Positions 17,024-64,000 of a stretch of DNA of 64,000 bases are shown here, piece after piece; position 1 is the first letter of the stretch, and the number at the start of each line of letters is the position of its first letter. The stretch spans positions 3,686,615 to 3,750,614 of the forward strand of contig CM060851.1 in NCBI GenBank assembly GCA_030737835.1. Direction: 5' to 3'. This DNA comes from Acorus gramineus (taxonomy: Eukaryota > Streptophyta > Magnoliopsida > Acorales > Acoraceae). A program made the position numbers and the translations under genes. Below the pieces are notes generated by a model that saw nothing but the letters and a program-made list of their open reading frames with translations, searched no databases and had not been told where the DNA came from.

Positions 17024-17335
17024 TGATTTCTGTGGGTCTTTGTTTAAACAACAGGTTCCGAATAATCCAAACTTATCTGTTGAGGCTGAAATGCCGCAAA
17101 AGGTCTATGTAATGACATCACATCTAATCAAACCGCGTATTTTTCAAGGATTTCGGATCTAGTTAAGCTTGGTGATGGTAGTATCGAATTGCACTAACAA
17201 TTAATTAAACTATATAGTCTAATGATCAAGCTATAGAGAAAGTGATACTATATCTAACAATTGACTGTGTAGTTCGATTTATAGGTTATATAATTCAATT
17301 AATTGACAGTGCTGTTTGATACTGATGATACTCAA

Positions 17336-28276: not shown

Positions 28277-28581
28277 AAAAGAGCATAAATAGTTCTGGTC
28301 TACCAAAATCATAGCAAGAGTCCTGTGTCTCTCAGTACACCGTTTCTGAACTTGCAAATGTTGACAAACACACTGAATTCCAACCATATTTGACCTCCAA
28401 AGTCTCCCTAATGCATGTCTTTTTCAATGTGCACTGTATATCAGATACAAAGGACTAAGCTTTCACCAGATCCACAAACCACATCGGTCTCCCTCTCTCT
28501 GATCTCCCAATTCAGGTTGCTCCACAGCAAATCATGATGTGGGAAGGGGTTCTTCATTTCTCTGAATTCAGAGCGGCCACC

Positions 28582-33607: not shown

Positions 33608-33954
33608 TGATCGAATTGAAGGGTTTTTAGGGATTTTTTGTCGAATTATTGGGAATCGAAGGGGAGAGACTGTGGGGCGGTTCGGTTAGGGTTACCTTCG
33701 GTTATTCTAAAGGAGAGAGAGATACGAGGGAATATAGTGATTTAGAATAGGATGGTGGTTTTTTATACAAGGGTCCAATTTTAGAAACAACGAATCAGGG
33801 CCGTTGGTTTTGATTAACCAGCCTTGCAAAATATTTAAATTCTAAATCATGGTGTATATTTTCTTGCCCGCCGTGTGACGTTGGAAATAAGTCCAAGATA
33901 AAAAAGAACATAGGAGAATAGAAAAAAAAGTTATTTATTTAAACATATAAATTC
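33608..33954. other. PH1 5' flank
   Basis: Upstream DNA of PH1 with a GAGAGAG stretch near 33710-33722 in the probable 5' UTR. No other gene is seen. Confidence 0.4.
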
Positions 33955-41517: not shown

Positions 41518-44500
41518 CTATCTCCACTTCTCAACAAATGCAGACTCTGCGAGGTCTATAGCGCGAGAGAGAGCTGCAGCTTTGTCCTCGCATTCTCTCT
41601 GTTCATCATCAGGATCGCTATCTGCGACTATACCAGCCCCCGCCTGAAGGTGGGCCACCCACTCCCGGCGCCTGTTCGAGTCCTTGTATGAGTACATGGT
41701 GTCGAAGCGAGTCCTAGTTGAAAAGACGATGGTTCGAAGAGCAAGAGCTATGTCCATGTCCCCTGTGAATGATATCCCGCCGAACCCACCACTGTATGGC
41801 CCTCGCCTTGTGACTTCTAACTCATCTATCAACTCCATTGCCTTAACCTGGTTTTTGCATTATAAACAACATAATGAGAGAAGTGTGGGGAACAAAAAAC
41901 AAAAAAAAAACTCCATAGATGTCGTCTACTAGAAGACAGGTTTATTCAGGTTAAGTTTTAATTTATTCTGTTTATGAGGTATCATGGATGTGAATTCCTT
42001 ATTGAGACCAGTTGATTGTGATCCTGGTGATATTGCAGTTATGTTTTATTTGAGACCACTGCGAGATATACTAAAAGAAAAATTGATCACTATTTTTGAG
42101 ATTTTAAGTAGTGACCCAAGGATTGTCATGTTTATGGAATTGGATTTTCAGGGGTGTTACATGCACATCCAACCATGACACTTTTATGCTCAGAACAAAA
42201 ATAGTAGCATAGCATAGGAGGTCATCAACACTTGGGCAAAGGCTGATTCCCATGTAACCAAAATCATCTTATCAGTAATGCAGGGGATGATCATTCATAT
42301 TTTCTTCTTCATAAGAGTAAAATCATCAGAAGATCTTTATGCGAAAAAAAAAATTTAGGCATGATTCCATACCTTTGGAGCTCCACTCACTGTTCCAACG
42401 GGCAAGGCAGCACGTAGAGCATCCCAACAAGTGAGGTGATCAAGCAATTCTCCTGTGACCTGTAAAAATGCTCAACTAAGTTACAGTGGGCCCTTTCTGT
42501 ACCTATGGTGGTAGAAAACACATCAGGGAAAAAACATCTTAGAATGCATGTTTGATTACAGAATAATGAGAAAGGAAGCTAGCCCATAACAATTTAAGTC
42601 AATAAGCATCCCACACTGTATTTATGAGGCAAAATAGATTAGTGGGATAGAAGACCTTCAGAGAATTATTTCCTTTGGAAATGATGGCAGATCATTTATA
42701 CAATTGTACTGATGAAAGAATAGGATGCCACTTCTGCTAAATGAAATTATTCATGATTCCCAATGTAAGATTTTTTATAAGTATTGGTGGTGTTTCCTCG
42801 TTCAATGATAATATGGTAAACAATCTATCCAAAAAAGAAGACTAATAGTTGGTTCCTTCAAATATATATAGTCACATGACTCACATGTATGCCCATAATT
42901 ATGTACTTCACAATAGAGTTTCTTCAGTTACTGATACAGCTAATATAAACTTTCTCCAATTACGCGTTGATATTTCTCTTAGTTGATAAAATACATAATT
43001 CTCCGGTACGTCATAAGATTTTATGAACAAGAAGACCTTTTGAAGTGCATATAAAAGTTAAGAATATATGTAGTCTATTCATATAGAACTTCAGGAAGGG
43101 AGTCTTACTGTTGAGCTGATGTGCATTACATGGGAATACCGTTCCACATTCATAAGCCTCTCCACTGTTACAGAACCAGGTTTTGAGACCTGCAGGGACA
43201 GCATGTGTGACAGTAAGAGAATAAAACTGTTCAAATTTCATTGGTGATGGAAGTTTAGCTACAATAATCAAGCAAGATAGTGAGAATAAATATCTAGAAC
43301 ATAAATCTGTCAAACATCATCTAATAACCTTCTTTATTAAATCAATTAAGAAAATGAACCTTTCCAACATCGTTTCGTCCCAAATCAACAAGCATAATAT
43401 GTTCAGCGCATTGTTTTTCATCGCTTAAAAGCTGTTGTTCAAGCATCTTGTCTTCCTTGTCTGTCTTGCCCCTTCTAACTGTCCCTGCGAGAGGACGATT
43501 CACAATTTTTCTCTGTTGACAATGAAACACATTGTTCAGGATGCATTTTAATAATAAAACAAAGTTTCAATATGACCATTAAAAGATTGTCAAGCAAAAT
43601 TCAGAAAGTAAACATGTGTAGACCTTCTTGACATGAGTAAGGATTTCAGGACTTGATGCGACGAGAATGCATCCTCTGGCCTAATGAAGAAAAACAGGGA
43701 AAAAATGGAAGGGAACGAAATTAACTCAAAATACTTACATTAACTCAAGATGCTGACACTTTCAAGATGTAGATCAAAATAAAATTGTGGTGCATCAAAT
43801 GTACATACTTGCAAGTAGGTCATATGAGGACTAGGATTAACCATCCTTAATGCTCTATATACTTCAAAAGGTTCAGCAAAAGTCCGACGCTCAAACCTCT
43901 GGCTCAACACTATTTGAAAGATATCTCCTGCTAGGATATGTTCTTTTGAATCCACCACAGCCTTCTTATAAGCTTCACTTGTCATAGTTGATTTATTTGG
44001 TGAAGCACTCAAAAGACTTTGACGATTGTCCACATGACCAGCTAATAACTTTGGACTAGAAAATCAAGATATTAAGAGCAGGGATTTAGAGCACATCATG
44101 GATGCATTGAAGATCAAGTAAGGAAGAAAAAAAAATGGGATGTAAAACTCACGGGTCGATATTCTGCACTCTGGAGAGCAGAAGTTCCAACCGGTTCTTC
44201 CCATCCTCATAGGCTTTCTCAATTGAAGGGTACCTATCTGTTCGCACCCAATGAATCACATGTGCTTTCTGAGACATCATAAAAACACAATCAAATTCAA
44301 ACCACATTTCTACCATATTTATTCTGGTGCAGTTTTGATTTTACTGGTTAATGCAATGGTTTCCAAGAACTTGTGCTCCTCAGATAAGTGACTGCAAGAT
44401 TGTCTCAGACTGACTACTGAAAACATCACAACAAGCTAAAAATATAATAGATTTCTATATGTGTGCAATATCTGTATACAAAGCCAATCACATAGAAGAC

Positions 44501-46295
44501 ATTTTCCCCAAGCTTGGTGAACAAACTGAGTCCCACTTACCTTCTCCACATGATCAAACACTATGACATCATCATATAGTCCCAGATGAACATCAGGGAG
44601 GTTCCTGTCATCCACTGGAGCATTTGAGAAAGGAATCTTTTTTTTCTCAACGTACCGCACTGTATCATATGAAAAATAACCCACCCACCCACCTGCACAA
44701 GGATAATAACATGAACTTGCTTGCTTGAAAAATCGCAAGTTTAAATACCAATGTGACACACGCAGGCTTAGAAAATAGAGTATCTACTAGTACAGATTAC
44801 AATCAGTCCAGATTTAACTTTGCATGAAGCAACAGCTGCTGTGTTGACATTATATGAAGATGCATGAAACAAATATTCATTACTAAAGACAATACTGAAC
44901 CCTCTAAAATAAGGATCTAAAAAACTAGAACCAATTCCATCAAAAGCATCCTATACTTAATATCTGTTTATAATCACATTCATTCAAATAAACGGAAAAT
45001 ACAAAAATAAAAAAGAATGGCGTTTATTTTTGTTCTTCAGGACATCCATAAAAATTGGAATGACACGGAGAAGATAAACATGCTCTCTCCACGGTGACAA
45101 ACAAAAATTGAAAAACGGTCCAAATTTTCAATGAGCCTACCTCTCGATTCATAGGTTAGTAGAGGTACCCCTTCTTCTCGGAGATGTTATAGGCTTGAGT
45201 CTTACTCGTGCGGAAACTTTTTAAAAAAAATAATGCTCTGATTTTTAGATGGAAAACACAAGAAATCAGTTGTTCTTTGACCCTTGCAAGCTGTTTTATT
45301 TGCATACCAATCCAATCAAGAGAAGACCTACTTCAAAATCACTAACATATCACTAAGGCCCCGTTTGGTTGGTGGCATTCTAGGCCGGATTCTGATTCCA
45401 TCCTAGAATAAAAGGAAAATGTCAAAAGCCACATGTTTTGTTGGTGTCAAAAGCCACAGGAATATGGGTCCCACTAGATTCAAAATCCATCAAAGTGGGA
45501 AAATTAGGTGGAAACAAAATCCCACCAAATTGGAAGGATTTTGAGAATCCTAGTGGACATCTTTGACACTAAAGTCTCACTTTCCATTCCTATAGCAACC
45601 AAACTCGCATACCCATTAACACAAGCACATCCCATCCTCCATTGAACACAGATCAAACATCAAGACAGAAGCGCAATAAAAGATCGAATCTCACCGCAGA
45701 ATGCATCGGGGAGTTCATCGATGATTCGGGGAGTCCACTTCTCCATGATCCTCCGTGGGATCACCATTGGGTCCTCAACCGTCTCCTCGGTCCTCCTCCC
45801 TCCCAAATGGTCCATGATCGTCACTGTATTCTCCTTCGCGACGATCTCCATCGCCGGTTGAGCTCCCACCACACTATACCTCCCCTGCCAATAAAAACCA
45901 ATGATGAATCCACAAATCCCAAACCAACCCAAACCCTCCCCAACCAAAACAAGACTTACAACACTGGCTCCGGCGATACCCTGTTCGACGGACTCGAAGA
46001 GGAAGCTCGGCGCGTCGGTGTCGTCCTCCCCGACAAGGCACCGGTAAGCGAGGACCGGAGTGAGGTGGTCGGAGAATATGCAGCGGCGGAGCGGGATGAG
46101 GTTCCCTCCCTCCGACGACGCCCGCGCGAACCTCAACGCGTCCTCCTCCAAAGGCGGCGCTTTGGATGATGGGGCGGAGACGGCGGAGATGGGGTGGCGG
46201 AGGAAGGGTCTGCGGCGGAGGCAGAGGCCTCCATAGGGGGGAAGACGAACGGCGGAGACGACGGAGGAGGAGGTGATGAAGTGAGTCATCTCCAT
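41518..46295 (-). CDS. ASA: Anthranilate synthase alpha subunit, plastid
   Basis: Ten exons, all in phase: 46295-45960, 45884-45695, 44692-44541, 44268-44153, 44055-43809, 43680-43624, 43512-43360, 43189-43109, 42459-42373 and 41847-41518; 582 residues with no break. The enzyme makes anthranilate from chorismate, using ammonia supplied by its beta subunit, in the plastid tryptophan pathway. An N-terminal Ser/Arg/Pro-rich transit peptide ([16 protein letters not shown]) is followed by the tryptophan-binding element [11 protein letters not shown] and by [10 protein letters not shown]. The chorismate-binding domain then has [57 protein letters not shown] and [10 protein letters not shown]. Feedback inhibition by tryptophan is expected from the intact LFES motif. 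Start choice among three nearby Met codons (46346, 46295, 46289) is uncertain. Whether it corresponds to ASA1 or ASA2 cannot be decided. Confidence 0.95.
45357..45610. mobile_element. Small MITE in anthranilate synthase intron 2
   Basis: The left end GGCCCCGTTTGGTTGG and the complement of the right end GCGAGTTTGGTTGCTATAGG form imperfect inverted repeats around a 250-base non-coding segment. GGCCCCGTTTGG termini are typical of plant Tourist/hAT MITEs. It lies wholly inside the intron between exons 2 and 3. Confidence 0.5.
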
Positions 46296-46627
46296 TGGCG
46301 TCGGAACTTCTTGTGATGGTGGTGGTTCTTTGGGTTTGTGACCCACCTTTTAATGTTGGGTCTGGAGGGGGAAGGATTGACATGCAATAAATGAGTGGCC
46401 TTTACATGGCTTCCAAATGCGGAGGAGGAGATGGCGACATTGGGTTTTTAAAGGAGGGGGAGATTGTGATCTTGGGAGGCCATGGGGATTCAGTGCTTTG
46501 AAGGATTTTGGGTTTTTGCATGGACCTTCTTAACATGGCCAATCAATCGTCGTTTTCGTGGTTGGAGTGAAGTAAGCAAGGGTTTACGAAAAGAGTGTGA
46601 GATTGTGTTTTGTTTGTCCATTTTTTT
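46296..46627. other. Anthranilate synthase promoter and 5' UTR region
   Basis: GC-richer than the DNA further upstream and without a recognised TATA box by eye. No gene. Confidence 0.4.
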
Positions 46628-47055
46628 AAGGATAAAATGTACTTCAACCCCTTGACAGTTTTTGAAAAATGCAGAAATGTCGTTTAAAATATAAAAACAT
46701 GCACTTACATTCTCCTGTTGTTATATTTTTTTTATTAGGGTATGATAAAATTAATTTAAAATTACTATTTTACTCTTAATTATCTAAATATCAATAGAAA
46801 AAATCAATCAATTAATTATATATATATTTTATGAATATTAATTTATATAATAATTAATTCTTCAAATACATTTAGATGTATTTTTGTGATAATTAAGTCA
46901 CATAATAAAGATTTAATTAAAATGATAAAATCGTATTGTTATCTCATCTTAATAGAAAATTAAATTGTAAAGGGTGTAATTGTATATTTTTAAACTATAA
47001 AGGTGTTTCTATATGTTTAAAAAATTTCATAGGGTCAAACGCATTTTACCCTTTT
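46628..47055. mobile_element. MITE with GGRTAAAATG termini, possibly Mutator-like
   Basis: The left end GGATAAAATGTACTTCAACC and the complement of the right end GGGTAAAATGCGTTTGACCC are inverted repeats, and similarity continues inward (AACCCCTTGA against GACCCTATGA). The inside is AT-rich and non-coding. Flanks share TTTTTAA. It lies about 330 bases upstream of anthranilate synthase. Confidence 0.6.
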
Positions 47056-47333
47056 TAAACACCGACTTCAACGTTATCTGTGATTCGGATTTGGGAATGT
47101 CTGCGTTTGTTTGTGTGTTGTGGGGCAGGCAAACGAAAGCAATTTTTTTGAGCTCAGATGGTCAATTCGTGTTTCTTTCGGAATTTTTTTTCTTGTTTTT
47201 TTAAGATCAGTTGAAGATTACGTGCGAAGCATCCTCTTGTATTAATTATCCCCCGGGGTGGAAAATATACTATAGACATAGAAGAATACAGTAGAATAGT
47301 CTTTAATCAGCTATTTGTTTGACAAGAATAAAC

Positions 47334-47752
47334 CTTAATAGTTATATCTGGATAAGTTATGATAAGGCCTGATAATTATTCTAAGAAAATAGTGGAATTG
47401 CTTATCAGAACATATCTATGCCAATGGATAAAAATACCCTTCTCTGTCATTTTAAAAATTTTATCTAACCTAACACTCTCTGCACACATTCCAAAAACTG
47501 TCACATCTATCATATCACACACATCTCTCATACTTATTCCCAAACACAAATTATTTATGCAGGGGTATAGTTGTCATTTAAAAAATCATAAACTTTTATC
47601 CATCTCTTATCTATCACTTATCATTACTTTATCCAAGGTGAATCAAACAACAAAAAGTTCAATTTTACGTTTCCTAACAAGAATAACAAAAAAGATAACC
47701 AAATAAAAATTTACTTATTCAGCATGGATTGTTATCTATCTTAGTATAGCTA
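47334..47752. mobile_element. MITE, family A copy 2
   Basis: A second copy of the element at 33955-34349, in the same orientation. Shared strings include GATAACTATTCTAAGAAAAT-like, ATCTGTCATTTTAAAA and AACTGTCACATCTATC. The right end CTTAGTATAGCTATCAAAG matches CCTAACATAGCTATCAAG of copy 1. Two dispersed copies within 14 kb confirm a mobile element. Confidence 0.65.
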
Positions 47753-47813
47753 TCAAAGACGAATAACCTTATGTCACACCCCAAACGGGGGTACAAGTCC
47801 TTGAAACTTTTTA

Positions 47814-48631
47814 GGGGCCGTTATTTCCACCCCATTAATTACTCACCCCACCCCTTTAAAAAATAAAATTTCATTTTTTTGGAAAGGTGAGATCCCACCC
47901 CGTCGAATACAAAACAGCAGCAACAAAGAAGAACAAGCACCAAGTCACCGACTCGTCCGTCTTCACCGGAGCAAACCCTCTCCCAGCCCGACCTTCTCAC
48001 CACCACCATTGTCCAGTCTCTGCTTGGAGCAAAATCTATTGATAAGAGGGTGAGAACACAGAGAGGCCTATGCTTTGAAGTTGCTCATTTGATGTGTTTT
48101 TCATGGCTTCGCTTGATGAGATCAATGAGTTTTGTTTTTCTGTTCATTTTATTTTTTGTATATCTTGAAAGCTCGACAGAAGACATGAAAAAAAGAGGCT
48201 AGGGTTTCTCGTTTATTGCTAACGAGAAACCCTAGCCTCTTTTTTTCTGAAAAAAAGGGGTTTCAGTTTCACTCATCGTAAGTTTTAATCTTTGATTTAG
48301 TTAGAAATTTTTTATTGTTTTTTCTGAAGCTTTTAATTCAATGCCTTGATGGTGTGTTTCTCGTTAGCCTTTCTATTGCATTTATGATCGAAATTGAAAA
48401 GACACTTGTGGAGGCAAAAATTAATAAAAACTTGGTGATGCACTTGCGGGTTGTGGTGGTGATGCCGTTGTACAAACGGTCTTCTCCGGTGAAGACGGGA
48501 GGTGCTCATTCTTTTTTGTTGTTGCTGTCGGAACTCGACGGGGTGGGATCTCACCTTTCAAAAAAACAAATGAATTTTTATTTTTTCAAGGGGTGGGGTG
48601 AATAACTAATGGGGTGAAAATAATGGCCCCC
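47814..48631. mobile_element. Mutator-like foldback element with perfect 9-bp target duplication
   Basis: AACTTTTTA flanks the element exactly on both sides (47805-47813 and 48632-48640). The left end GGGGCCGTTATTTCCACCCC and the complement of the right end GGGGGCCATTATTTTCACCCC begin inverted repeats of about 180 bases, which share TGAGATCCCACCCCGTCGA and GTCTTCACCGGAG further in. The central ~400 bases are unique apart from a perfect hairpin at 48187-48247. There is no transposase frame. Termini and 9-base duplication fit the Mutator superfamily. Confidence 0.85.
48187..48247. repeat. Perfect 27-bp hairpin with telo-box motifs
   Basis: Arms 48187-48213 and 48221-48247 are exact reverse complements over 27 bases with a 7-base loop (TATTGCT). 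Each arm contains the plant telo-box-like AAACCCTAG or its complement. It sits almost exactly at the centre of the surrounding foldback element (centre about 48222). Confidence 0.95.
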
Positions 48632-48640
48632 AACTTTTTA

Positions 48641-49846
48641 ACTTAACGATAAGTCCTCAAGTTTCAATACCGATTATATTTGTCTCCTTCCATTCAACTT
48701 TGTTAATCTCAATCCTTTTTCTACTATTTTTTACCCCTAGCCCCTTCCCTTCTTTGTGTTCCCCCTTATCTCTCATGCTACCCTCGCGCCTTTCTGTTGC
48801 CTCCCTCCATTTTTTGTCTCTGACAATTCACATTGTCTCTCTCATCCCTGTTTTCACATCTTTCTCTTTCCTTTTTTAATCTACTAATGAAAGACGACGG
48901 TGTTTTTCACTCATACTATGTTCATCATGTCGATTGCAATGAAGGGTTCTCTCTCCATCCATCACGGATATATTGTTTCTCACTCCATCCTGGATCGATT
49001 GTTTTTCCCTTCGGATCCACATAATAATAACAGTGTACCCAAATTGTATAACAGTATACTACGCATTTTTAAATCTATGAATCATAATGTACATATTATG
49101 CATAACGGTGTACATGGAGAATGGCAGGGTAGAATAGGAAAAATAAACAACCGTTTATGATTCTGTTAGTCAGGACTCAAACATAATAGGTGGTGATATC
49201 TGGGGACCTATTATTCAGTTAAAAAGTTACATAGACTTATAGTTAATATAAGGGTATACTGAAAGACCTATATTAATTTTTTCAAAATAAATCAAACAAA
49301 TAAAAAAAAAGACAACTCTTCTCGTCAAAATGACAACTCATTCATTCATAAATAATTGTACACATTTTAAAAAGATGGGGTGATGTTTTATCTCTTCATT
49401 GATTTAAAATTAACATTGTTAAACTTTTAAGTCATAGATTGGACCACTAGATCATTATTCTATTTAGGAACAATGTTAAGACTCAACCCAATTTCAGATT
49501 TTTAGTGCAATATGCAATCTACACATTGTTTCAAAATATAATATACAATCTCGTTACAATGATATATGTGACTAATAAGATATATGAGATGATAAAATAG
49601 ATTGAGTATAACAACATTCATCACTTATAATAAGAGGATAACTATGTATATTTAGTTTTTTTTTTTTTTATGTATGTGTATATATACTAGTGTTAATCCA
49701 GTGATGTAATTTGTAATTAAATTTTTAACCAAACAAATAAAAAAAATGACATGTTTATCCCATCACTTTTGGGATGTGTGCTATGACTTTTGAAAACGTC
49801 TTGTCATCTCTGTAACTTCTTTTGCTAGAGCACGTAAAGCCTGGTT
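48641..49846. other. Intergenic, no gene seen
   Basis: CT-rich stretch at about 48680-48890, then AT-rich DNA. Open frames of 60-86 codons at 48833-49160 have no family similarity and overlap each other, so they are not called. Confidence 0.35.
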
Positions 49847-50262
49847 TGATATTGGAATAAAAGCTTGGGATAAAAAAATAATTTGGGTTAAATCACATGT
49901 TATATCCCATACGGCATAAGAAAAAAAAAAGATAAAGCATGGACAATTGTCTGTATTTTGAGAGAAAAAGTTAAGATATTTGTTTCAGATAAAAAGTGGA
50001 ATAGACTTTATTCCCCTTTTTTTCCTCATTTTGTAAAGCATGGACAACATTTATAATTACCCCTTTAATAGAAATGGTAAACTTTGTATTTTTTAAAAAA
50101 ATTTGAAGTTATCTCATATTTTACATCATGTGATTCAAGTGCAAAGTTAAAGATAAAAACACAAAAAAATGGGGATAACATTTACATGAGAATCCATTTA
50201 TCAAGATATACATATTGCATCTTGCATTTTCTATCACTTCCATCACCCTAAATAGGCTTACG
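49847..50262. mobile_element. Tourist-like MITE, copy 2
   Basis: Related to 21102-21592 in the same orientation: AAGCCTGGTTTGATATTGG at the left, then GGGATAAA, TGGGTTAAATCAC, ATCCCATACGGCAT and GATAAAGCATGGACAA in the same order. The complement of the right end reads GTAAGCCTATTTAGGG. More diverged than copy 1, and its right half is rearranged. Confidence 0.5.
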
Positions 50263-51498
50263 ATTTTAAAACGCGTCATAATATGTAAGAGTTGTGCTCA
50301 TATATAAGCACAGACCATCTCTTTTCGCTAGGCGATGTGGGACAAAGCACCTCACTCTCATCCAACCCATGGGTCTCTTGGGACTCTTAGGCCTACCACC
50401 CTCTTAGGACCAAACATTAGATGAAGTATTGCCGAGCCCCATTTCCAACACCAATTTTAATCTACATGTGTTTTGAATTTTTTTTAAAAATAGTATACCC
50501 CATCTAATGTAGCATATGCTTTTATAAAAAATAAAAGCATATCCTACAATGAATTGTATAAATGCATTTATAGAAAATGTAAAAAATTTATATCGAATTA
50601 TATAACTCGTTAATGTGAGTATATGCTGTATTATTTTTTTATCGAAATCTATGAGATTAGAATTAAGGCTGTAAAAAAAAGAATTGTGTGTAAAAAGTTA
50701 AATTTAGTCTATTTTATGGTTCAAAACATAAACCAAATATGTTTTTCTTTTTAAAAATAATAAACATTATCTAACAAATTTATACGTTTAATAAAAAAAT
50801 GTATATTGCTTCATTTCTAATTGAATAAATTCATTTTAATAAATAAAAAAAATTAAAGAAATATATATGCTACTACATTTCGTCTTTCCCCCTTTTATTC
50901 TCATGTTCTTCTTCCCAAAGGCGCAGCGCGCGTTCTCTAGCGCTGCTGCGCCAGTCAGTGTTCGTTCTCACACATTGTGTTTACTTTTGTTTACTTTGTT
51001 TATTTTTATATTATATTTATATAGTCTATTTATCATATGATTGATTCTTTAGTTTATTTTTTTTTTGTTTAATTTTTGTTTATTATCGTATGATTTATTT
51101 GTTAATTTAAAATTTGAATCTCTTTGTTGTCACTTGTCATATTGAATTTTTTTTTGCATGTTATATGTAATTATTTTCTTTAAAAAAATATGTCACTTTT
51201 ATTTGGTGTTTTTTATATTTGTTTTGATGTTTGGGACGAGAGATCCAATGTTGAAAAAATTATAATGTTTTTAGATCTATTTAGGACACATTATGTAGCG
51301 CTTTCGGAAGGAGATGATGTTTTTAGATCTAGAAAAAAAATGTTGTTAAATTTCTTTAGGAATTGGGTTATCCAATGAATTGGTTATTGGTTATGAAGGA
51401 TTTTTTTGTTGATACGATTTTTGTTTCTTTTTAGGTGGTGATGGTCCATCACTTTTTCCATCTATAATCTAACTAGAATATTTCCTCTCTTTCTGTCT
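50263..51498. other. Intergenic, AT-rich, with a repeat-like GC patch
   Basis: The patch at 50320-50445 (GATGTGGGACAAAGCACCTC, then TCTTGGGACTCTTAGGCC) looks like a scrap of a dispersed plant repeat, but I cannot assign it. A short GC-rich GCGCAGCGCGCG stretch is at 50920-50950. No gene. Confidence 0.35.
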
Positions 51499-51843
51499 AT
51501 AATCCGTTTGAAAACACAGATTGAAAAGTAGTTTTTGAAATAAAGCTGTTTTTTAAGATGATTTTAGACTTTGATTTTTTTAAGATGTTTTTTTTTAATT
51601 CAGGAATCAATATTTGAAAGGAGTTTAATGTTTGGTAGAGAAAGTTGCTTTTCAATTCAAAAAATCGATTCCGACCAAAAAGCATTGTTTCTGAGCTTTT
51701 TAAAACACAGATTTCAAGGAAAAAATTAAAAGGAATCCAGCTTCCGATTCTGCAAAAAGCTGTCCCGTTTGGCTGCACGATTTTAGCTTTTCAACTTTTC
51801 AAAAAGCAAAAGCGCGTCCAAACGCGCAACCAAACGGGGCCTA
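51499..51843. mobile_element. MITE-like element
   Basis: The right end CAACCAAACGGGGCCTAAG is the complement of the common CTTAGGCCCCGTTTGGTTG terminus, also seen in the MITE at 45357. The left end near CCGTTTGAAAACACAGATTG is a poorer match. The interior contains mirror-like TTGAAAAGT / ACTTTTCAA segments. Confidence 0.4.
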
Positions 51844-53331
51844 AGTCCCCATAATGATATAAAATTTTAATTTCAGCTAAGAGTGCGTTTGGTTACAAAT
51901 AATTTGAAATACAATAGATTTAATTTTACATGGATCAATTTTTTTAGGAGAAAACAAAATCTCGTGTTTGATGGTATTCAAATTGTTCTACGGAAAATAG
52001 CTTTCATTGTTTGTTATTTATTAAAAAATATACTTTTTCCTTTCATGTAAATTAGAAGTATTATAACAATATGAATTAGATAACTATTATTTTTAAATAT
52101 TTTAATGTCGGGGTGGTTAAAATTTAAAATCTTATCTATTCCATCATGATTAGAAAAATATTCAAATTTATGTATATTTTAAAATTTATTTGGATCAAAT
52201 CTTTTTTATATTTTTTATGATTTTACATAATCTTTTTCATAATTTTAGTTATATCCTAAAATCCTGTGAATTAGTTAATTTTCAACGTTCAATATTTGAG
52301 GTGCTATGATTTTTCAATTTTTATCAGCAACATGATGTGAAAATACCTTAGTTTTTAATTTGAATATAAGTGATTTGTATATAAAGTTTACATAATTTCA
52401 AATTATCATCACAATTAAACAATATAAAAAATTCAAAATAAATAATATATTAAGATTAAAGAATATAAAATTTAAAATATAAGGAAATAGATAAAAGAAG
52501 ATAAAAATTTAAATAGATAATATAAAAGATATAAAAGTTTTCTGATAACTAACAAATGAACCCTAATACTTTTTATTTGAAAATATTGAAGTTGATGTTC
52601 TTGGCATAAATGTCTCATAGGGTGAAAGACATTTTTGGACTAGACGTGATAATAGAGCATTATTATAGAGCATTAATTGTAAAAATCATAAAAACATACA
52701 AAATCACCATTTAAAAGTTAGAAATACAAATGATATAGAAATGATATGTTTCTTGAAACAGATTTCATTTTTGCAAGCCAAGCATTCTAGAAAGCAAGTT
52801 TGCATCAATAAACTTGTATAAAAAGCAAAAGAAATTGAAGATGACTTTCCACTTAAGTCCTTTCCGGCGATGGTTCTCTACTTGATGGTAGAGCATGGAT
52901 AATCCTCATTGCTAATCATTTTACATATGATATTCAGACAGTAAAAGAAAAGAAAGCGCCACACATTTGTGAAATAATAGGATACTTCAACATCCTTATA
53001 TTGAATCACTAAATGGTCAACAAAAAAAGATAAGAAAAAATATAATGACAGAGTTGAGATAATACCTTTTCTGGAATTGCTAAGTAAATTCAGAATTTGA
53101 AAGAACATGATTTTTCTGACTATGTCATAGAGCTAAGAATGTGATATGACAGAGCCGTTAACAAAGTTGGAGGTTTTTAATGTGATATGATGTGAGCCAC
53201 CTTTGTAAGTGCTTGGATAATTTGGATCATGTTATGGAGAGGAACAAAGATGCTTTTGACTGCATGAGAGAGTAAAAACATTGTAAAGTTGAATGAAAGC
53301 CAAGAATGTTATAGAGCAAATTTGCATCAAT
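51844..53331. other. Intergenic, probably another degraded element
   Basis: Begins AGAGTGCGTTTGGTTACAAA (51882), a MITE-like terminus, with a possible partner near AACAAATGAACCCTAA (52549). The remainder is AT-rich. No gene is seen. Confidence 0.35.
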
Positions 53332-53395
53332 GACCTTCTAAAGAAAGCAAAGACATTGAAGAAGACCTTCTAAAGAAAGCAAAGACATTGAAAAA
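53332..53395. repeat. 32-bp tandem duplication
   Basis: GACCTTCTAAAGAAAGCAAA and the following GACATTGAAGAA occur at 53332-53363 and again at 53364-53395 with a single difference. A diverged version of the surrounding segment lies at about 52795-52850 (AAGTTTGCATCAATAAACTT). Non-coding. Confidence 0.85.
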
Positions 53396-54529
53396 AACTC
53401 TTTGCTGGAGACGAGCGATCAAGAGATTTGAACCTTCAATTTCATCAGGCACTCGCCCTCTATTTTCATTAACTCTTTCCCACACACATTCTTAATCGAA
53501 GAATTCACTTCTTATCTTATAAAACCAGACTTTTGGATGAGGATTTCAAGCAATGGCTTCTGCTCCATTTATATATACATTTGAATGGATAGCAAGTTAT
53601 CATATTATGTCATATCATTGGTTATATATATATCACTATCTATATCTTATCCTTATTGTACAAAATGAATCCAAATAGGTAAGCTAAGCTAAAGAGATAA
53701 TATGATAAAAAAATGCAATTCATAAAAAAAAAAAAAAATGTTACACAGTCTATTTTAGAGCCCAAAATACAAACAACACATTTTTTTAAAAATAATTTTT
53801 ATATCTCATTAGATGTATATACTTTTATAAAATGTGAAGTATATATTCTAATTAATTAAATGCAATCATTTATAAAAAAAATAAAACAAATATTAATAAA
53901 TTATATTCCTCGATAAAGTGAATAGAGGGTTAACGACTGAAACTGTAATTTTTTTTTAAAAAAGTAGACCCCAATTGAAAACGGATTTGGGGAGCTTTTG
54001 AGTTTGTGAGAAGCTGTTTTTATAAAACCCGTTTCCAAACATGATAAACTAGTCTTCACCCATGTATGAAGTGCATGAAAATATAATTAATAAATAATAT
54101 GATACGTTAAAAAATATCTAAGAAAATCCACCAATAAAAAAAAAGAAATTGAAAAATAAAGTAAATGATAAAAAAAAATGGTCAAAATAAATAATATGAA
54201 TTCTTTTTAATAAGAAAATAAATTAAACCCACTTATATCCATATAATTCACTAAATTATATGATGTGTTTATAATTATTTAAGAACAACAATGGGTTGAA
54301 GCACAACGCAACTCTGAACAATTGCGGGCCAACATGTCTGTATCTTCCTGACTCTATCATTTTTACAGTAAAAAAACTTAGATCACAACACCATATAATA
54401 AAATACATGATTTGATAAAAAAAAATTGTACATCGCTTCTTTATTTCGTATTAAACGAGCCTAGTTTTATTTTTAGTAAATATAAAAAAAATTACAGTAA
54501 AAAAATTAACTGTGTATAAACCAGGGAGC
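53396..54529. other. Intergenic, AT-rich
   Basis: No gene or complete element is seen between the tandem repeat and the nucleoporin-like gene's promoter. Confidence 0.4.
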
Positions 54530-54539
54530 GTCACGTGAC
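54530..54539. promoter_or_regulatory. Palindromic G-box (GTCACGTGAC)
   Basis: A perfect 10-base palindrome around CACGTG, about 190 bases upstream of the predicted start codon at 54731. Fits a bZIP/bHLH binding site. No such site is seen in the shorter upstream region of the downstream NUP62 gene, so the paralogues may be regulated differently. Confidence 0.45.
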
Positions 54540-54730
54540 GTATGCGTCAGTATACCACGGGCTTAAAGCGGTGGGGGACCAAACCGGGCTTTTTAGTAAG
54601 CTCAAAAAAAAAAAAAAAGAAAGTCAGGTACTCCGTTTCCCCTCTTCGACTTTCGCGCCCGTTAAACCCCTCAAAAAGGAAAGTTGGTAACCAAAACCTC
54701 TCAAAACCCTCGATCGATCGGTTCATTCCG

Positions 54731-57700
54731 ATGACGTCTTTCTCCTTCAACACCTCCTCTTTCACCTCCACCGCCAACGCCAATGCCACCTCCTCCTCCT
54801 CCTCAAACCCTAATTTCTTCCCCTCCAGTCCCATCTCCTTCACCTTCGGAACCAGCTCCTCCCCGATCTCTGGATCCCGTCCTCCATTGTTCGGATCTCT
54901 ACTTTCTTCATCGCCGTCTTCGACGTCTCCCGCTTCTCCGCCGTTCGGAGTCCCCTCACCCGCCGTTCCCGCGTCTCCGTTCACCTCTCCAACGGCACCG
55001 TTCACCGTTTCATCGCCGTTCGGAGCGGCTCCAGCTTCATCGACATTTACGGGGGCTTCGTTTCCCGCCTCTTCAATCTTTGGATCTTCTTCGGCTACCA
55101 CTACATCATCGTCCCCTCCCAGCTTCATCTTGTCCGGTACAGCTTCCACTCCACTGTTCTCCAAGACTCCCGCCACATCGGCCCCAGCATGGGTATTCCC
55201 TATCACGACCTCTCCATTGGTGACATCGCCGTTGTTTGGAAGTGGTTCTGTTGCATCGCCTGTTGCGGCTTCCACCAGAGGTGGACAGGTCAAAGCGGCC
55301 TCACCCGTCGCTGCTTCGCTCTCCTCCACAGTTGTCACTACTTCAGCCTCGGCTCCCACCGCCACTACTCCACCTCTCCCCGTGTTTGACGTTTTCCCAA
55401 ACTTTTCCTTGTCAACAAAATCATTGTCTTCAACAATGGCGTCATCTTCGCAACCTCAGTTGACTACTGCTGCTCCATCTTTTGGTGAGTCAGTTTCTCT
55501 CTTGTGTGAGTTTGTTTTATATTGTCGGTACGGTTCATATGCATTTGAAAGTGCCAAGTATGGCCACTAGAATGTGAAATTGGGTCGCCTTAGATGATCT
55601 GGGGAACCAGCTATATTTTTATTGATATAGGTACTGTCACATGTATGAATTACTCATGGAGTGAGTCATTGCACTGAATGGTTAGTTTGTGAAATCCAGT
55701 GTTCCTTTCAGCATTGTCAGAGAGCATTTAAAAAGCATGAATTGTTGCTGTGTAAGTATAGTTATGGCATCTTATTAGAAAATCGTCCCATCATTATTGT
55801 CGTTTTACTTTATTGACGAATTCTTAAGATTCAGTTCGTGTCCTGCCCTAAGCTTATACCTGTCGTTTCAGCATCTCATGACCTGTGGTCAGTTGGCTAG
55901 ATTGCTCAAGCATCAAAAGGACTGTTCTGTAGTAGATTTTAACAAGGAAACAAGTAAAGCATGTCTTGGAAGAGTGATAGACCAAGTAGTTGTTTTTATC
56001 ATGTTTTCAAAATCCAAACCTTAAAATTTGACCCACTTAACCACCTGATTTATTTTAAAAAATCTGCTTCCCTCCTTTCTTTATGTAATTACCTCCTCTA
56101 TTTACAGCTTAACATCTCCCCTCCGGCCTCAACCACTTATGTACTTGCCTTGTGGTGGACTCCATCCTCTCTTATCCCTTCAATTAATGAGAAGGGGACA
56201 TTGGGAATCATGTGGTAGGACATTGCCCAATGCATGTTAGTGGCCAATTCATCTTCAAATTTCTGGATGTAGTGAATAGCCTGGGTGACTGATCCATTGT
56301 TAGAAGTGGCAAGATTCTTGCACATTTGATGGTCTTGGTTCAGGTGCCACCTACACTATATTGATGAATTGATTAAGTTTGGGTTCGAGTTCGGGCCTAC
56401 AGGTTGTGGGATCTGGGAGTGAATGGCTATATTTAATGGGTTGCTGGACTATCCGATTGGGTATGACTTTGAGGGATCCGCAACAACTTCCTTTGTTCCA
56501 CTTGTTGATTTTGTAGGTCAACAGCTATATTCCCCTGGCCCATTGGCTTCCCATTATGTTTGGATGAATTTTTATGAAGTGGACTTGGACCTAATTTGGA
56601 CTTTGAGGTATTTGGGAGTTGGGTATGAACAACAAAAATAAAGGTTAATTGGGTTAAGTTCTTGGCAATCTATATAAGATGGGCAAATTGGTTCATGGTT
56701 GGTCAAAAATGGTTACAGGCAAAGGTCAAACAAAGTAATTCCTTTAATGGAAGCACATTAAAAAGGCTAACACCAACCAAACACAATAGTGAAGTGGGGA
56801 TCGGGTTGCTTATGGACTGCCTCAACAAATGATGTTTGCATCTCTGTTGTGGATGCCTTGGATGCATGTAATAGTCTTGTCTATGGACAGTCAACATGTT
56901 TTCTTCGTGTAGTATTCATACACCAGCAATGAATGTCTTCCTCAACCACCAGTCAATTCCTGTTTTGAGATGGAAATTATGAGATAATGTATGACTAGTC
57001 ACAGATGGCGTGGTGCATACTCTACGCGTGCAGCTGATATGGGTTTCTTTTTGGTTTACCGGTGGAACACACAAGTTGTACTTGCTGGTTTTTAAATGAC
57101 ATTTAGGGTCATTTATCCTCTCAGAGGCAGAGATGATGTTTTAGTGTTGCACGAATGTGGCATTCAGAATACTTGGCTATTATTGGATGCAAGAGGTTCA
57201 ATGCATATGTTGTGCCTATGGCTTGACCTCCCCGTTATATATGTCCTGTTATTGGTGATACATCCATTGTAGAATGAAAGCCTTACTTCGTGTATGCTCC
57301 ATGTGATCTGATTTGCGTGGCTCATGTGCTAGTGAGCCAAGGTTTACAACCTCAAAATCCAACAACTCTCTTCTAATCTGTAATACCAACAGCTCGAGCC
57401 TCTGTGGGAGCTCAAATAGGCACATGTGGGACCAGTATAAAACACTTAAACACCACTGAATAGTGTTTGTTGTGAGGCTTTTATGCTTTCTAAGAGACCC
57501 ACCTGACTGACCCCAAAAGAGGAAAAAAAGGAAGAAAAAAAAAACAGAGATTCAACAATCACACAATTATTATGCTCAATACAAATGTTTTATTTTGTGT
57601 TATGGTTGTGCTTTGATGTATTTTGGGTTTTCTATTTTAATATAATTTTGGTAGGATGCATACCATTTCATCAAAAAAAAAAAAATTATGCACAATACAA

Positions 57701-58495
57701 TTAAAGATTATGCAGTCATAAATTTCTGTTGTCTGTGTTAGATTTCTTATCTTCATCTCCCATGTTAACTTTTCTATATTATTTTTTAATGCAGCAGCTG
57801 AAGTTGTGGAAGGGAAGCCTGTTTTACAAGGATCCCAAGAACCACAAGCCCTCAAAGATGGAGGGTCAGTAGATGAGGTTGAGACCCAAGAAGCAACAGA
57901 ACCGAAGCCTACTTCAGGAAGATGTGCATCAATGCAAGCACCTAAGAACAAAACAGAAGAAGATAAGACTTTTAAAACAGCGGTGGACAATTCTGCTCAG
58001 CCGGTTGATCATTCACGTGAACTATTGGGGATACCTCAGAACCCTCATTTTGAACCTCTCAATGTTTTCACTGAAAAGGCTAGACGAAATTTAATGGCAG
58101 GTTGGGATAAGACCTTCGTGGAGGTTGCTGAGCAAATTCAGAGTTTAACAGCTGATGGATTCTTTGATAGCGTCGGAGGGCTGAGGAAGTCTTTGGCAGA
58201 GCTGGAGGGCTTAATGGGGTATGATGTGAGCAGGTTGTGGAAGCGGTTGGATGAGCTTGAGAACATAATGGAGAAGAACAAAGAGTGTTTGCAAGGCGTG
58301 AGCGATCTGAAAAATAGAGTGGATGATGAGGAGGAGGAGATCAAGCGACTCGAAGCAGAAATATCGGCGTTGCGAGCCAAGCAAGTAGAGGAGCAGGCAT
58401 GCATTGATGAGCTCATGAAAAAGGCAAAAGAGAAGGAAGAGGACCTCCCAATCATACTTGAGTCTTTTCAAGCAATGGTTCTTGCTCCACTCTAG
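54731..58495 (+). CDS. Predicted FG-nucleoporin/DUF724 chimeric protein
   Basis: Exon 1 (54731-55484) encodes 251 residues rich in Ser/Thr/Pro/Ala with FG, SPFG and PLFG motifs, clearly related to the N-terminal FG region of the downstream NUP62 gene (shared 5' UTR, MTSF start, SQPQLT..A.SFG end and the same donor TTTG|GTGAG). The donor is phase 1. An acceptor at 57794 (TTAATGCAG) opens exon 2 (57795-58495) in matching phase and leads through an acidic linker to a DUF724-like domain: IPQNPHFEPLNVFTEKARR, VEVAEQIQSLT, a long Glu/Lys coiled coil from about residue 395, and the terminus ESFQAMVLAPL. Total 484 residues. The NUP62 C-terminal coiled-coil domain is absent. DUF724 proteins are plant-specific and have been proposed to act in RNA transport. 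The joining of the two exons is a prediction; they could be two separate genes, the first a truncated NUP62. Confidence 0.62.
55485..57794. other. Large intron (or intergenic gap) of the FG-DUF724 gene
   Basis: 2.3 kb between the FG exon and the DUF724 exon. Its first ~100 bases still resemble the NUP62 intron 1 (GTGAGTCA, then CATATGCATTTGAA and AGTGCCAAGTA, AGTATGGCCACTAGAATGTGAAAT). After that the similarity to NUP62 stops. The rest is AT-rich and contains no recognised NUP62 exon. So the breakpoint of the duplication lies inside this interval, at or soon after 55580. Confidence 0.6.
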
Positions 58496-59208
58496 TAACA
58501 TGTAGCCTACACTATCTCTTCTTCCTTTGGACAGTGTAAGCTTTTCTGAGGGGTTGTATGAATCACAGTTGTCGTGGGTGTGTGTGTCTCTTTTGGGTTT
58601 ATTGAAGGGAGATTTTTTGTAATTGTAAGGGATATGTTAGGGTTGTGAATGAGAACCTTTATTAATATTTATTTAGCTAGGTATGTAATTTGAATTGAAT
58701 GACAGCTGGTTTATTAATTGATGCTTAAGGTGGACATAAAATTTGGAAATAAATAAAAGTTTAAGTAATTTGTTAATCACCATTCTCAAAAGCAATGGCT
58801 ATAACTATGGCTCCAAAAAAATCAAACCACCTCGTGAAAAATTGGTAGAGGCATCTTTTTTTTTCACAGAAGGGTTATAGATTTAAGTTTTACTTTTGTT
58901 CATATGAGAAGATTTGATCAAGAGTGATAAAATAATTTTTTTAAAAAATACCAACCCAACAAAAAAAAAAAAAAAAAAGCAGCTCCAAAAAAATCAATTC
59001 AAATAATCAACTTCAAATGTCAAATATACATAAAGTGGACAGAACATTCTTAATTTATCATAGGAAAAACTCGAACAGTTAGATTTACATCCATAAATAA
59101 ATCCTGTATTTCTTCTCTTATACCGCGCGCGCGCCCGTTAAAACCCTCGAAAAGGAAAAGAAGGGAACCAAAACCCTCGATCGATCGATTCACTTCGAAA
59201 CGGAGGCG
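58496..59208. other. Intergenic region between the two nucleoporin-like genes
   Basis: 3' flank of the chimeric gene (GT-rich at 58565-58590) and then the NUP62 promoter. The last ~90 bases (CCCGTTAAAACCCTCGAAAA, then CCCTCGATCGATCGATTC) match the 5' flank of the upstream paralogue at 54656-54725, showing that the duplication included the 5' UTR and core promoter. Confidence 0.65.
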
Positions 59209-62200
59209 ATGACGTCCTTCGCCTTCGGCACCTCCACTTTCGCCTCCTCCGCCCCCTCCACTTCTCAATCACAGGGCTTCTCTTTCTCTCAGCCCCTCTC
59301 CGCCTCCCCCTCAAACCCTAATCCCTTCTCTTCGGCTTCCAGTCCCTTCTCCTTTGGCTTCGGAAGCTCCTCCTCGTCGTCCGCGGCGGCGGTGACAACG
59401 GCGGCAGCTGCGTCGGCCTCGATCTTCGGCGGATTTGGCTCCTCGGCGAGCTCCGGATCTTCTCCTCTCTTGTTCGGAGCTTCACTGACGTCATCTTCAT
59501 CAGCATCTGCTTCTTCTCCGCTGTTTGGCTTGGCTTCATCCACCGCTCCTGCGTCTCCCTTCGCAGCACCCTCGCCATTCGGAGCGGCGTCTGCCTCATC
59601 AGCTGCCGCGGCGTCACCGTTCACCGCTTCATCTCCATTCGGAGCAGCTTCATCGGCTGCCACAGCTTCACCTTTCACCACTTCGTCGCCATTCGGAATG
59701 GCCCCTGCTTCATCGGCCGCCATGACATCACCTTTCGCCGCGCCGTCACCATTTGGAGCGGCCCCTGCTTCATCTCCATTTGGAGCAGCTTCATCGGCTG
59801 CCACAGCATCACCTTTCACCACTTCGTCGCCATTCGGAATGGCCCCTGCTTCATCGGCCGCCATGACATCACCTTTCGCCGCGCCGTCACCATTCGGAGC
59901 GGCCCCTGCTTCATCGGCTGCCACCACATCACCTTTCACCGCTTCAGCGTCACCATTTGGAGGGGCCCCGGCTTCATCGGCCGCCACCACAGTCACAAAT
60001 TCGCCGACTTATACGCGAATATTCGGCCACATTCGCCGAATGAAGCCTCTGCCGAACAAATCGGCGAAGCTACGGGCGAGTCGGTGCATACGGCGATTAT
60101 TCGGTGCATTCGGCGATTATGCGGTGTATTCGGGACAAATCGTGATTGTTCGGATAATTTGGGGTATTTTGGAAAATGCAAAGTATGTTAAAAAAACCCC
60201 CCCGACTGGGTCCCTTGCCCTAACCCCTAAAAAACTAAAAAGGGCCCCTCCATCTCTGGCTGAATAGCTCTCCCTCCATCACCGGCTGTTCGATTGAGTG
60301 GTTGAAGAAGGTGACGACTGAAGACCCTCCATCTCCGGCAGTTCCTGGCTGGCTCTCTCTCTCTCACTCTCTCAGGCTCTCACAATCTCTCCCTCCCTCT
60401 CCGGCGGACCGGCAGTCCGACTCTCCCTCTCCGACAGACCAACACTCCGGCTCTCCCTTAGTCTTCGAAGGTGAAGGTGACGACGGTGATTACCTTTCTC
60501 TTTAATCTTTTCTTCTTTTGAAATCATTGTTTTGGATTTCTTGTTTTCAATTTGTTAATGATGTCCTGTTTCTTCTTGATGATGTTATGTTTCTTCTGTG
60601 GTTGATTGATGTTGGAAATGGAAATGGAAATGTCATATTGATTGATGTCTGTTGGAACCACGGCGTCTGCTCCGGCAGTGACGCCTTCCAGATTCACTGT
60701 GTCTGCCTCCTCTCAATCCTTGACTCCCACTATCACAACTTCAACACCAGCTCCCCATGCGTCGGCTCCGGCTCCGCCTTCAGCTCCATCACTCCCCATG
60801 TTTGGCTCAGCTTCAACACCTGCCACGACTACGGTGACAATGACAGCTCCCCCAAGTCTTTTCTTGTCTACGAAACCATCATCATCAACATTGGCATCAT
60901 CGACCTTATCTTCGCAACCTCAGTTGACTCCTGCCACTCTGTCTTTTGGTGAGTCAAGTTTTTTTTGTGTAAAGTGAGTTTGATTTATGTTGTAATTATG
61001 CTTCATATGCATTTGAAGTTTTGAACCAAGTGCCAAGTAAAGTACGGCCACTAGAATGTGAAATTTGATTCCTCTGTTCTCCAAACCCTTTGCAGGATTC
61101 TCCGTTCCAGCTTCCTCAAGTGCATCAACTCAGAGTGCAGCAATCGCTTTTGCCAGTTCTAGTGTAGCAACAACTCAGCCATTGTCAACAGCTGGCGCAG
61201 CCAGTACTGCTGGGTTTGTGAACCTTGTCAATATTATATATGAATATAACACCGCTGACATTACACATTATCCAGTGGTGATTCTCTTTCTCCATTTGAT
61301 GCGATCCGAGTTCTGTTGCTTATGTTGGATTTATTTATTCTTTTGGCTTGTAGGACGACATCCTCAACTGTTAGCACGGTGCAACATCAAACACCCAAGT
61401 TACCATCTGAAATTACTGGAAAAACTGTTGAGGAGGTACCTTTTCTGGACATGATATATTTATATAGATATTTATCCTGTTCACTGTTGGTGTTACTTTC
61501 TGCCAAAGCCCATAAACATGGCATAAATTTATCAGTTTTTTTGCACTGCAATGAGCATCATTTCCAACAAGAACAGTGTATATCCTTGGTTTTTGAATTT
61601 ATTTCTGACAGTTGTTCATCTATTTGTTGAACTGCAGTAATCATCCATTTAAGGATGCTGCATCTGACACTTTATTCAATCAGAACTGAGATTTAATGAC
61701 ATGTTTCCTCATTATTATTACATTGTTCTGACAGTAAATAAGATTTCCATCATGATTAGTTCATCTTCTAGGACTATATTTTAGTGATGTGGACTTTGAT
61801 ATGGTTTTTTAAATGTAGTTTTTAATCTTGACAATTTTTTTCCAGATTATCAAAGATTGGAATACAGAGCTACTGGAGCGCACTGGGAGATTCCATAAAC
61901 AAGCATGTGCTATAGCTGAATGGGATAGGAGGATCTTGCAAAATCGTGATGTTCTTATTAGGCTTGAGGTAAATCACCATAGAGTAGAAGAATGTATGGA
62001 CAAGAACTGGACAGAACAAATATAATTGACTTTATTCGTTATCTGATAAATGATTGTAACTTTTTGTAACACATTTGCATATGGCCATATTTTGATTTGG
62101 ATGAAACTTTTTTGGGTTGGATCAGAAATTTTTAATGCTTGCTGTCAGTAAGCTTATTTCTGGCTCACAAGCATTCACTGCCACTGAGAAAAGAAGTTAT

Positions 62201-63947
62201 AAAAATAAAATAAAAAAGCATTGGGACTTTAGCATTGGTTGGGTGTAGGATGTAGGTCTATAAGAAGCTCTAGCAGTGCTTTCTGTCTTTTTTCTTGGGA
62301 CCTCCAAACACTTGGGGATAGGATCTTGACCATTGTATTGTCTCGGTGCCAGTGCTGACAGGATTTCTTCCTCTCTTTTTGATCGGCTAAGTGGGATGGA
62401 TGGCTTCATGTCTTGCTTTCTTTTGGTTGTATCCACTGGCCACCTAAGTTTTTAGAATACTTTGTGATGGTTATACCAATTACTCCCTCAAAAAATTCCC
62501 CAAACTAAAGTTTTGAATATTTAATCTCTTGATTGTGGTTGATCAACATATTATTTGTGGATTTCTCCAGGTAAAATTTTCATAAAAAATGACAATAATT
62601 ATTGGCAAAATTTATATTTGATTCCCCACCTTCTAGTTCTGATTTGGGATGTTGTCTTATTTTCTTGCTGCAGACAGAGGTGGGAAAAGTTGTGGAGACA
62701 CAGAGTAAATTGGAGCGGGAGCTGGAATTGATTGAAACACATCAGCAAGAGGTTTAATTTTGATACACCTTACTACAGTATTATTGACGACACACTATTA
62801 TATTACTGATTTGGCTGTCCTTTGTCATGTCTTGAGTGAGACGGTTGTTTCATGTTTTTTCACTGTTGTATATATGTTGATGATACATTAATATTCATCT
62901 TTTTATTGACCTAATTAATGATAAAAACGTGTATCTAGTGCTCTAGCTGTTGATCAGTAGTTCATGTGCTTGTGTGTGAGGGATCAAATATATTCATAAT
63001 CATCATTTTTTAGCAAAATTTCAGTGTTGTTTCAAGTATCAGTAAATTCTATTATTGATCAAATTGGAAATATGAAAAAACCAGTAATGGATTTTCTGAC
63101 ATTTAGGTTTAATCTGTTCCTGTTTGGAAGCTTGAATAGACAAAGATATTCCGTTATTAGAAAGCCATTGTTAGTAAGCATAATAGTGAAATGTCTTATG
63201 CATTTTGTTTTATTACAAATAAAATTGTATTTTTTAATAGGTTGACAAAGCTTTGCAAAGTATTGAAGAAGAAGCTGAGCATATTTACAAGGATGAGCGT
63301 GGATTGATGCTTCAGGATGAAGCTGCATCGACTAGAGATTCAATGTGAACACTTAGCTCAGTAAACTCGTTTATTAGTATTTAAACATATTTTTCTCTTC
63401 AATTATGACAACACATTGGCATCAGTTGATGTCGCAAAATGCCTATATATAGTCTTCTCAAAAGCCTATTTTCAGACGTATTATCTAGATACATCTGCAT
63501 AATGAGTGGAAAATTTGTTCATCTATAGAGTGAAATTTTGAATGATGGCATATGTTTCTTTCTTGAGTGAAATAAATATCCGTGCTCACCTATTCGAGAT
63601 TCTCAGGAAAACAAATGTTTATATCTGTATGTTGATGGAACTGTCAGGTATGAGCAGGCCGAGTTTATTGAAAGGGAAATGGAGCGTATGGCAGAACAAA
63701 TAAAATCAATTATTCAGACCTTTAATGCTAGCCAGGTATAAGGCTCTGTGCATGTTTGTTCTGGGTCCTTTCTTTTATTTCAGTTGTAATTATCATATAT
63801 TTTTTTACAAAAAATGGTTCTTAGAATTCTCATCTACGTGTCTAGGGTGGTGGTGACCTGGATATGATCGATGCAATGACTCCTATTGACGTTGTTGCTC
63901 GCATACTTAACAATCAGCTCAGTTCACTGATGTGGATCGATGAAAAG
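59209..63947 (+). CDS. NUP62: Nuclear pore protein NUP62, partial at 3' end
   Basis: NUP62 is a central-channel nucleoporin: its FG repeats form the permeability barrier and its C-terminal coiled coil joins NUP54 and NUP58. Exon 1 (59209-60948) encodes the FG part, with many SPFG and PLFG motifs and a 47-residue duplication. Downstream exons, all in phase with each other, are 61096-61213, 61354-61435, 61846-61968, 62674-62751, 63241-63344, 63648-63735 and 63846-63947. They encode the Nsp1_C/Nup62 C-domain: LPSEITGKTVEE, IIKDWNTELLERTGRFHKQA, EWDRRILQNRDVL, VDKALQSIEEEAEHIY and DAMTPIDVVARILNNQLSSL. The last exon is beyond the window. Exon 1 is interrupted at about 59998-60640 by unrelated DNA that brings a stop at 60265, and no simple in-frame splice removing it was found. 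The gene may be damaged, mis-assembled or spliced in an unexpected way. Confidence 0.85.
59641..59922. repeat. 141-bp tandem duplication in the FG-repeat exon
   Basis: GGAGCAGCTTCATCGGCTGC starts both copies (59641 and 59782). The two 141-base units, 47 codons each, are nearly identical. The period is a multiple of three, so the frame is kept and two to three FG motifs were added. Confidence 0.92.
59998..60640. mobile_element. Foreign insertion in NUP62 exon 1
   Basis: Sequence unlike FG-coding DNA begins after ACCACAGTCACAA (about 59998) with ATTCGCCGACTTATACGCG, has about three near-repeats of CGGCGATTATTCGGTGCATT (60080-60125), a CT-rich stretch (60330-60440) and a T-rich stretch (60490-60600). 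FG-type coding resumes near 60645 (SVGTTASAPAVTPSRF). It resembles the terminal part of a DNA transposon, with TCGCC/ATTCGG subterminal motifs, but no inverted terminus or target duplication could be fixed. A host-gene 5' end captured by an element is another possibility. Confidence 0.45.
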
Positions 63948-64000
63948 GTCTTTTTTTTTTTATTAATATCAGAATTTAGGTTCTTTTCCATTATATCCTT

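Follow-up and report, generated by a model that had tools for sequence, protein, structure and literature searches.

The locus described here raises a simple question: does an FG-type exon derived from the nucleoporin NUP62 form a single new gene with the DUF724-encoding exon that follows it, or do the two merely lie side by side? Both are found in a 64,000-nucleotide stretch of Acorus gramineus DNA (assembly GCA_030737835.1, contig CM060851.1, forward-strand positions 3,686,615 to 3,750,614), referred to below as the window and numbered from its first letter. A first-pass annotation had proposed that tandem duplication of NUP62 and exon capture created a protein combining an FG barrier segment with DUF724. 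The reading that we find best supported, and consider probable, is that of a two-exon chimeric gene arising from partial duplication of NUP62 and exon capture: its parts can be traced to two gene families (NUP62 and DUF724) and their splice sites are compatible. The origin of chimeric genes by partial duplication and exon capture is a known mode, the same as that proposed here; we know of no exon-capture chimera with an FG nucleoporin as donor.

NUP62 and its partial copy

Judged by its sequence, the gene downstream of the locus is NUP62 (59209..63947, + strand). It was modelled as an FG exon (59209-60948) followed by exons 2-8 (61096-63947) and extends past the modelled part. Exons 2-8 join into 232 stop-free codons, exons 2-6 match the Nsp1_C domain (E 7.8e-23) and one exon of the gene has a match in PDB entry 9sob, to its NUP62 chain (E 1e-17). 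The FG exon is split by a 666-nt insertion (59991-60656), where the frame meets a stop at 60265-60267. This insertion is flanked on both sides by ACCAC, a 5-nt match possible by chance, and is transposon-like by eye, with no terminal inverted repeat longer than 7 nt found. The same exon contains a tandem 141-nt unit (59626-59907, two copies, 98% identical), evidently a recent FG-repeat expansion.

A block of ~0.93 kb (54654..55581, + strand) was copied from NUP62 (source 59130-61065), as delineated by blastn blocks and non-coding Kimura two-parameter (K2P) divergence. Besides the FG exon, it includes 77 nt 5' of the ATG and runs 97 nt into intron 1, so that the copy and NUP62 correspond from the leader through the exon and its donor to the beginning of the intron. 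Homology between exon 1 and NUP62 is clear from the DNA itself (E 7e-32 for the best blastn block) and includes the leader (91% identity over 65 sites, K2P 0.10) and the intron start (89% over 97 sites, K2P 0.12). A blastn search of 54500-57795 against the window gave no match outside the copied block at E 1e-3. The tandem copying and the NUP62-derived first exon seen in the first-pass annotation are therefore upheld, with the correction that the duplication is partial, covering the ~0.93 kb block and not the whole gene.

Exon 1 (54731..55484, + strand) begins with the ATG at 54731 and is 754 nt long, that is, 251 codons plus one base, ending in a phase-1 donor. The donor, TTTTG|GTGAGTC, is that of the NUP62 FG exon at 60948; both the exon coordinates and the donor identity had been correctly recognised before. 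The encoded sequence is Ser/Thr/Pro/Ala-rich with Phe. Its 251 residues include six FG motifs, whereas the NUP62 exon, with its insertion left out, has 16 in 359; a Pfam scan of exon 1 gave no FG profile match; the description 'FG barrier segment' was accordingly too strong. The FG count is above that of shuffled sequences (mean 1.09, P 0.0001) but was inherited from NUP62. Further differences from NUP62 are that the copy is without Nsp1_C and is followed by a DUF724 exon.

NUP62 exon 2 begins at 61096, 30 nt beyond the point to which the copied block extends; the NUP62 intron-1 acceptor is therefore missing, which leaves the donor of the copy without a native acceptor. At the other end, TATA-like sites are found upstream of exon 1 at 54481 and 54515; since the shared DNA reaches only 77 nt 5' of the ATG, promoter copying cannot be claimed. 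Antisense ORFs at 54547-55455 and 58138-58467 were considered as genes and rejected, neither having a Pfam match at E 0.01.

The DUF724 exon and the predicted splice joint

Exon 2 (57795..58495, + strand) encodes an acidic linker and a DUF724 domain and ends in a stop codon at 58493-58495; its assignment rests on a Pfam match and on codon periodicity. The earlier proposal that it is of DUF724 type was confirmed by an HMM search, in which it matched PF05266 with E 9.2e-17 and 62 bits (curated cutoff 38.4), covering profile positions 23-156 of 188. The first in-frame Met, at 57932, is N-terminal to the entire matched stretch. The 45 codons of the exon that precede this Met are codon-periodic (chi-square 28.7), a value reached by 0/5000 shuffles and by none of 273 overlapping or 62 non-overlapping non-coding windows (highest 22.7), compared with just 5.4 for the 135 nt upstream of the acceptor. 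Since the periodicity lies ahead of the first Met, exon 2 was shaped for reading from an upstream exon, which may have been an ancestral exon instead of the FG exon.

In single-sequence mode AlphaFold2 models exon 2 with a mean pLDDT of 65.7 (at least 70 in 106/232 residues), as a low-confidence linker followed by long helices from residue 105. A PDB sequence search with exon 2 returned five weak matches (best E 0.18), and a PDB fold search with the model, to be given little weight at this mean pLDDT, returned 17 (best E 1.7). Searches of viral and prokaryote contigs, collections not meant for plants, gave 12 and 71 pattern matches, respectively, with none confirmed as relatives.

Two broken DUF724 copies lie in tandem on the 5' side of the FG exon, which therefore has DUF724 copies on both sides. 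Relic A (52590..52890, + strand), a broken C-terminal part of a DUF724 exon identified by blastn, tblastn and alignment, is 69% identical to exon 2 over 114 nt (blastn E 1e-5); its tblastn match (52597-52878, E 5e-8) has stops inside, its alignment is gapped and its three + frames gave no Pfam match. Relic B (52964..53373, + strand; blastn 52980-53250, E 3e-12) is a broken copy of a DUF724 exon with numerous frame-breaking gaps and a likely terminus, seen by eye only, at ~53540-53571. In contrast to these two, both broken by stops and frame-breaking gaps, exon 2 is intact with a full-strength DUF724 match.

Between exons 1 and 2 lies a predicted intron of 2310 nt with GT-AG ends (55485..57794, + strand). 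The exon 2 acceptor, TTTTTTAATGCAG|CAG at 57794|57795, has a T-rich tract, then CAG, in a phase that matches the exon 1 donor, and the predicted splice 55484|57795 joins the exons into 484 residues, in frame and without a stop, bearing out the earlier observation of a long exon after a good acceptor in matching phase. An alternative acceptor at 57797|57798 is also in frame and would give a product one residue shorter. The phase agreement would occur by chance about one time in three; stronger support comes from the orphaned donor, the codon periodicity, the in-frame indels described below and the lack of any other candidate exon.

The intervening gap yielded no rival partner for the orphaned donor. 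Under simple scoring of phase and splice sites, no open internal exon that is in phase and reaches 90 nt was found. A Pfam search of all six frames gave nothing significant, its one line, Ycf70, falling below cutoff (E 0.14). Candidate NUP62 3' exons in the gap were rejected (tblastn with the protein of exons 2-6, best E 7.7), and the same protein gave a best E of 5.0 against the stretch from the DUF724 exon to NUP62. With the DNA of 61066-64000 as query, the best blastn match in the gap was E 1.2 only, so that Nsp1_C was not found there by Pfam, tblastn or blastn. An Agenet exon upstream of exon 2 was likewise sought and rejected, there being none in the + frames of 46300-53700 or the six frames of 55485-57794. 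A possible likeness of the gap to the region upstream of the relics was dismissed: blastn found nothing at E 1e-3, and the gap-ridden permissive alignment was taken as noise.

These features suggest a route by which the gene could have arisen. The homology establishes the copying of ~0.93 kb of NUP62 to a place ~4.5 kb upstream, next to DUF724 exon copies; the order of events is inferred. As the copied piece has no NUP62 intron-1 acceptor, its donor should use the next good acceptor, which is predicted to be that of a phase-matched DUF724 last exon.

Divergence, constraint and rival readings

The copy and NUP62 were compared by anchored alignments, the NUP62 exon being read without its insertion. 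In the reliably aligned coding parts all five indels (30, 6, 69, 3 and 9) are multiples of three, compared with one of eight (1, 1, 10, 10, 1, 3, 11 and 5) in the leader and intron (Fisher p 0.0047), a contrast in which the indel of 30 represents the aligner's 29 + 1 merged by hand, and which leaves out the FG middle (~54983-55395), whose inclusion would weaken it. At the end of this middle part, where homology is doubtful, the aligner placed gaps of 21, 2, 1 and 10 in the copy and of 3 and 16 in NUP62. Some of the counted indels may have arisen in NUP62, itself constrained.

Substitutions give a less even picture. The 235 aligned codons give dS 0.52 and dN 0.26, against 0.10-0.12 in the flanks, and synonymous differences rise from 3/32 sites in the opening 41 aligned codons to 17/39 in the 42 that follow (p 0.0015). 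Values that disagree in this way offer no sound basis for dating the copy; repeat turnover or conversion is likely. In the first 41 aligned codons (54731-54860 versus 59209-59377), amino-acid change affects 22/91 sites, compared with 17/162 in flanking DNA (p 0.006), an excess that either relaxed constraint or fast change could explain. Retention of Phe codons was considered as a signal of selection and rejected (10/12 kept versus 62/101 of the others, p 0.21).

Were the two exons separate units, the locus would hold an unjoined 5' fragment of NUP62 beside a short DUF724 gene that has a first exon of its own and is transcribed from a promoter in 55.6-57.8 kb. Such a gene could draw on TATA-like sites in the gap (56671, 57236 and 57436), which also contains one AATAAA (56637), and could start at Met 57932, ahead of the whole DUF724 match. 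That start, however, would leave the first part of exon 2 unexplained, because a strong acceptor immediately precedes the exon and codon periodicity is present ahead of this Met. Nor would an unjoined fragment be expected to stay free of frameshifts, as exon 1 has done: in neutral simulations the probability of its staying open was 0.40 with substitutions alone but below 0.01 (0.007) at a quarter of the local non-coding frameshift rate and 0.00005 at half. We regard two separate units as unlikely.

A chimeric transcript might instead be made and have no function, the gene being a young duplication accident that is open by chance or decaying. The in-frame coding indels and the intact DUF724 match speak against this, despite the low non-coding divergence (K2P 0.10-0.12), the excess of N-terminal amino-acid change over flanking change and the neighbouring relics, which show that DUF724 copies do decay at this locus; we consider it distinctly improbable. 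An assembly or haplotype artefact joining two loci is more improbable by far. The locus is known from one window only, but the copy differs from NUP62 and hence does not represent a collapsed or repeated NUP62, and DUF724 traces flank exon 1 on both sides, as expected for one locus.

The predicted product and its relatives

Under the preferred reading of a two-exon chimeric gene, the predicted 484-residue product is acidic (50.6 kDa, pI 4.8). Its N-terminus would be disordered and contain Phe; its C-terminus, helical and formed by DUF724, would replace the Nsp1_C coiled coil. Work on Arabidopsis reports that a NUP58 two-hybrid screen recovered the Nsp1 domain of NUP62, that AtNUP62 insertions have lethal or developmental effects and that NUP62 overexpression causes severe necrosis in tobacco leaves (PMC4700657); NUP62 dosage, on this account, matters in plants. 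Since the product is without Nsp1_C, the domain retrieved by NUP58, entry into the NUP62/54/58 channel complex is not expected. The intronless FG-coding first zone described for AtNUP62 in the same source resembles exon 1.

For DUF724, the Arabidopsis protein AIP1 is described as self-associating and as binding the ARM-repeat part of ABAP1 in two-hybrid assays (PMC4634149). By analogy, the product may act as a nuclear scaffold that associates with itself and bears a disordered tail containing Phe; this tail, a weak binder of transport receptors, would be brought to nuclear partners of DUF724. A plant nuclear protein of this kind, new and under selection, with a nucleoporin Phe tail on a self-associating DUF724 scaffold, could bring transport receptors or FG-type condensates to DUF724 partners (e.g. 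chromatin/replication regulators), off the pore or at its rim; we offer this as a tentative suggestion that is doubtful at present. If the gene is transcribed and conserved, it would represent a natural exchange of a channel nucleoporin's anchor for a different coiled coil and would test how an FG-type tail behaves away from the pore. In that case DUF724, a domain that is poorly understood, would also gain a partner whose behaviour is known, and nucleoporin FG exons would be seen to be capable of seeding new genes.

Agenet/DUF724 proteins share with the product a C-terminal DUF724 (AIP1/DUF7), here above the Pfam cutoff, but the N-terminal Agenet/Tudor part described for class II was not found here, its place being taken by an FG-type exon (PMC4634149). 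Closer in outline are the Group II DUF724 proteins of wheat and rice, which the wheat paper describes as lacking the Agenet motif and having few or no introns, a likeness drawn from description, N-terminal sequences aside; the group sizes that it gives are mutually inconsistent (PMC10531524). An FG-DUF724 family may be older than the A. gramineus locus. A literature search combining DUF724 with nucleoporin or nuclear pore returned no paper, in keeping with the statement of the first-pass annotation that it knew of no described protein with this architecture, and among the matches listed in broader searches no title or abstract opening names an FG-DUF724 protein. The mode of origin is known, and the FG plus DUF724 architecture is not described in the titles and abstract openings searched.

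Other genes or gene fragments in the window comprise a starch-binding CBM_20 protein (10824-11720, - strand), a PPR-like ORF recognised by eye (14831-17104, -), an LRR receptor kinase (28459-31338, +), a PH-domain protein (33161-33685, -) and anthranilate synthase/chorismate-binding exons (41518-41859 and 44436-44783, -). At 47811-48633, inverted repeat arms (47811-47906 and 48535-48633, 89-97% complementary) surround ~0.63 kb, an arrangement that looks like a small inverted-repeat transposable element.
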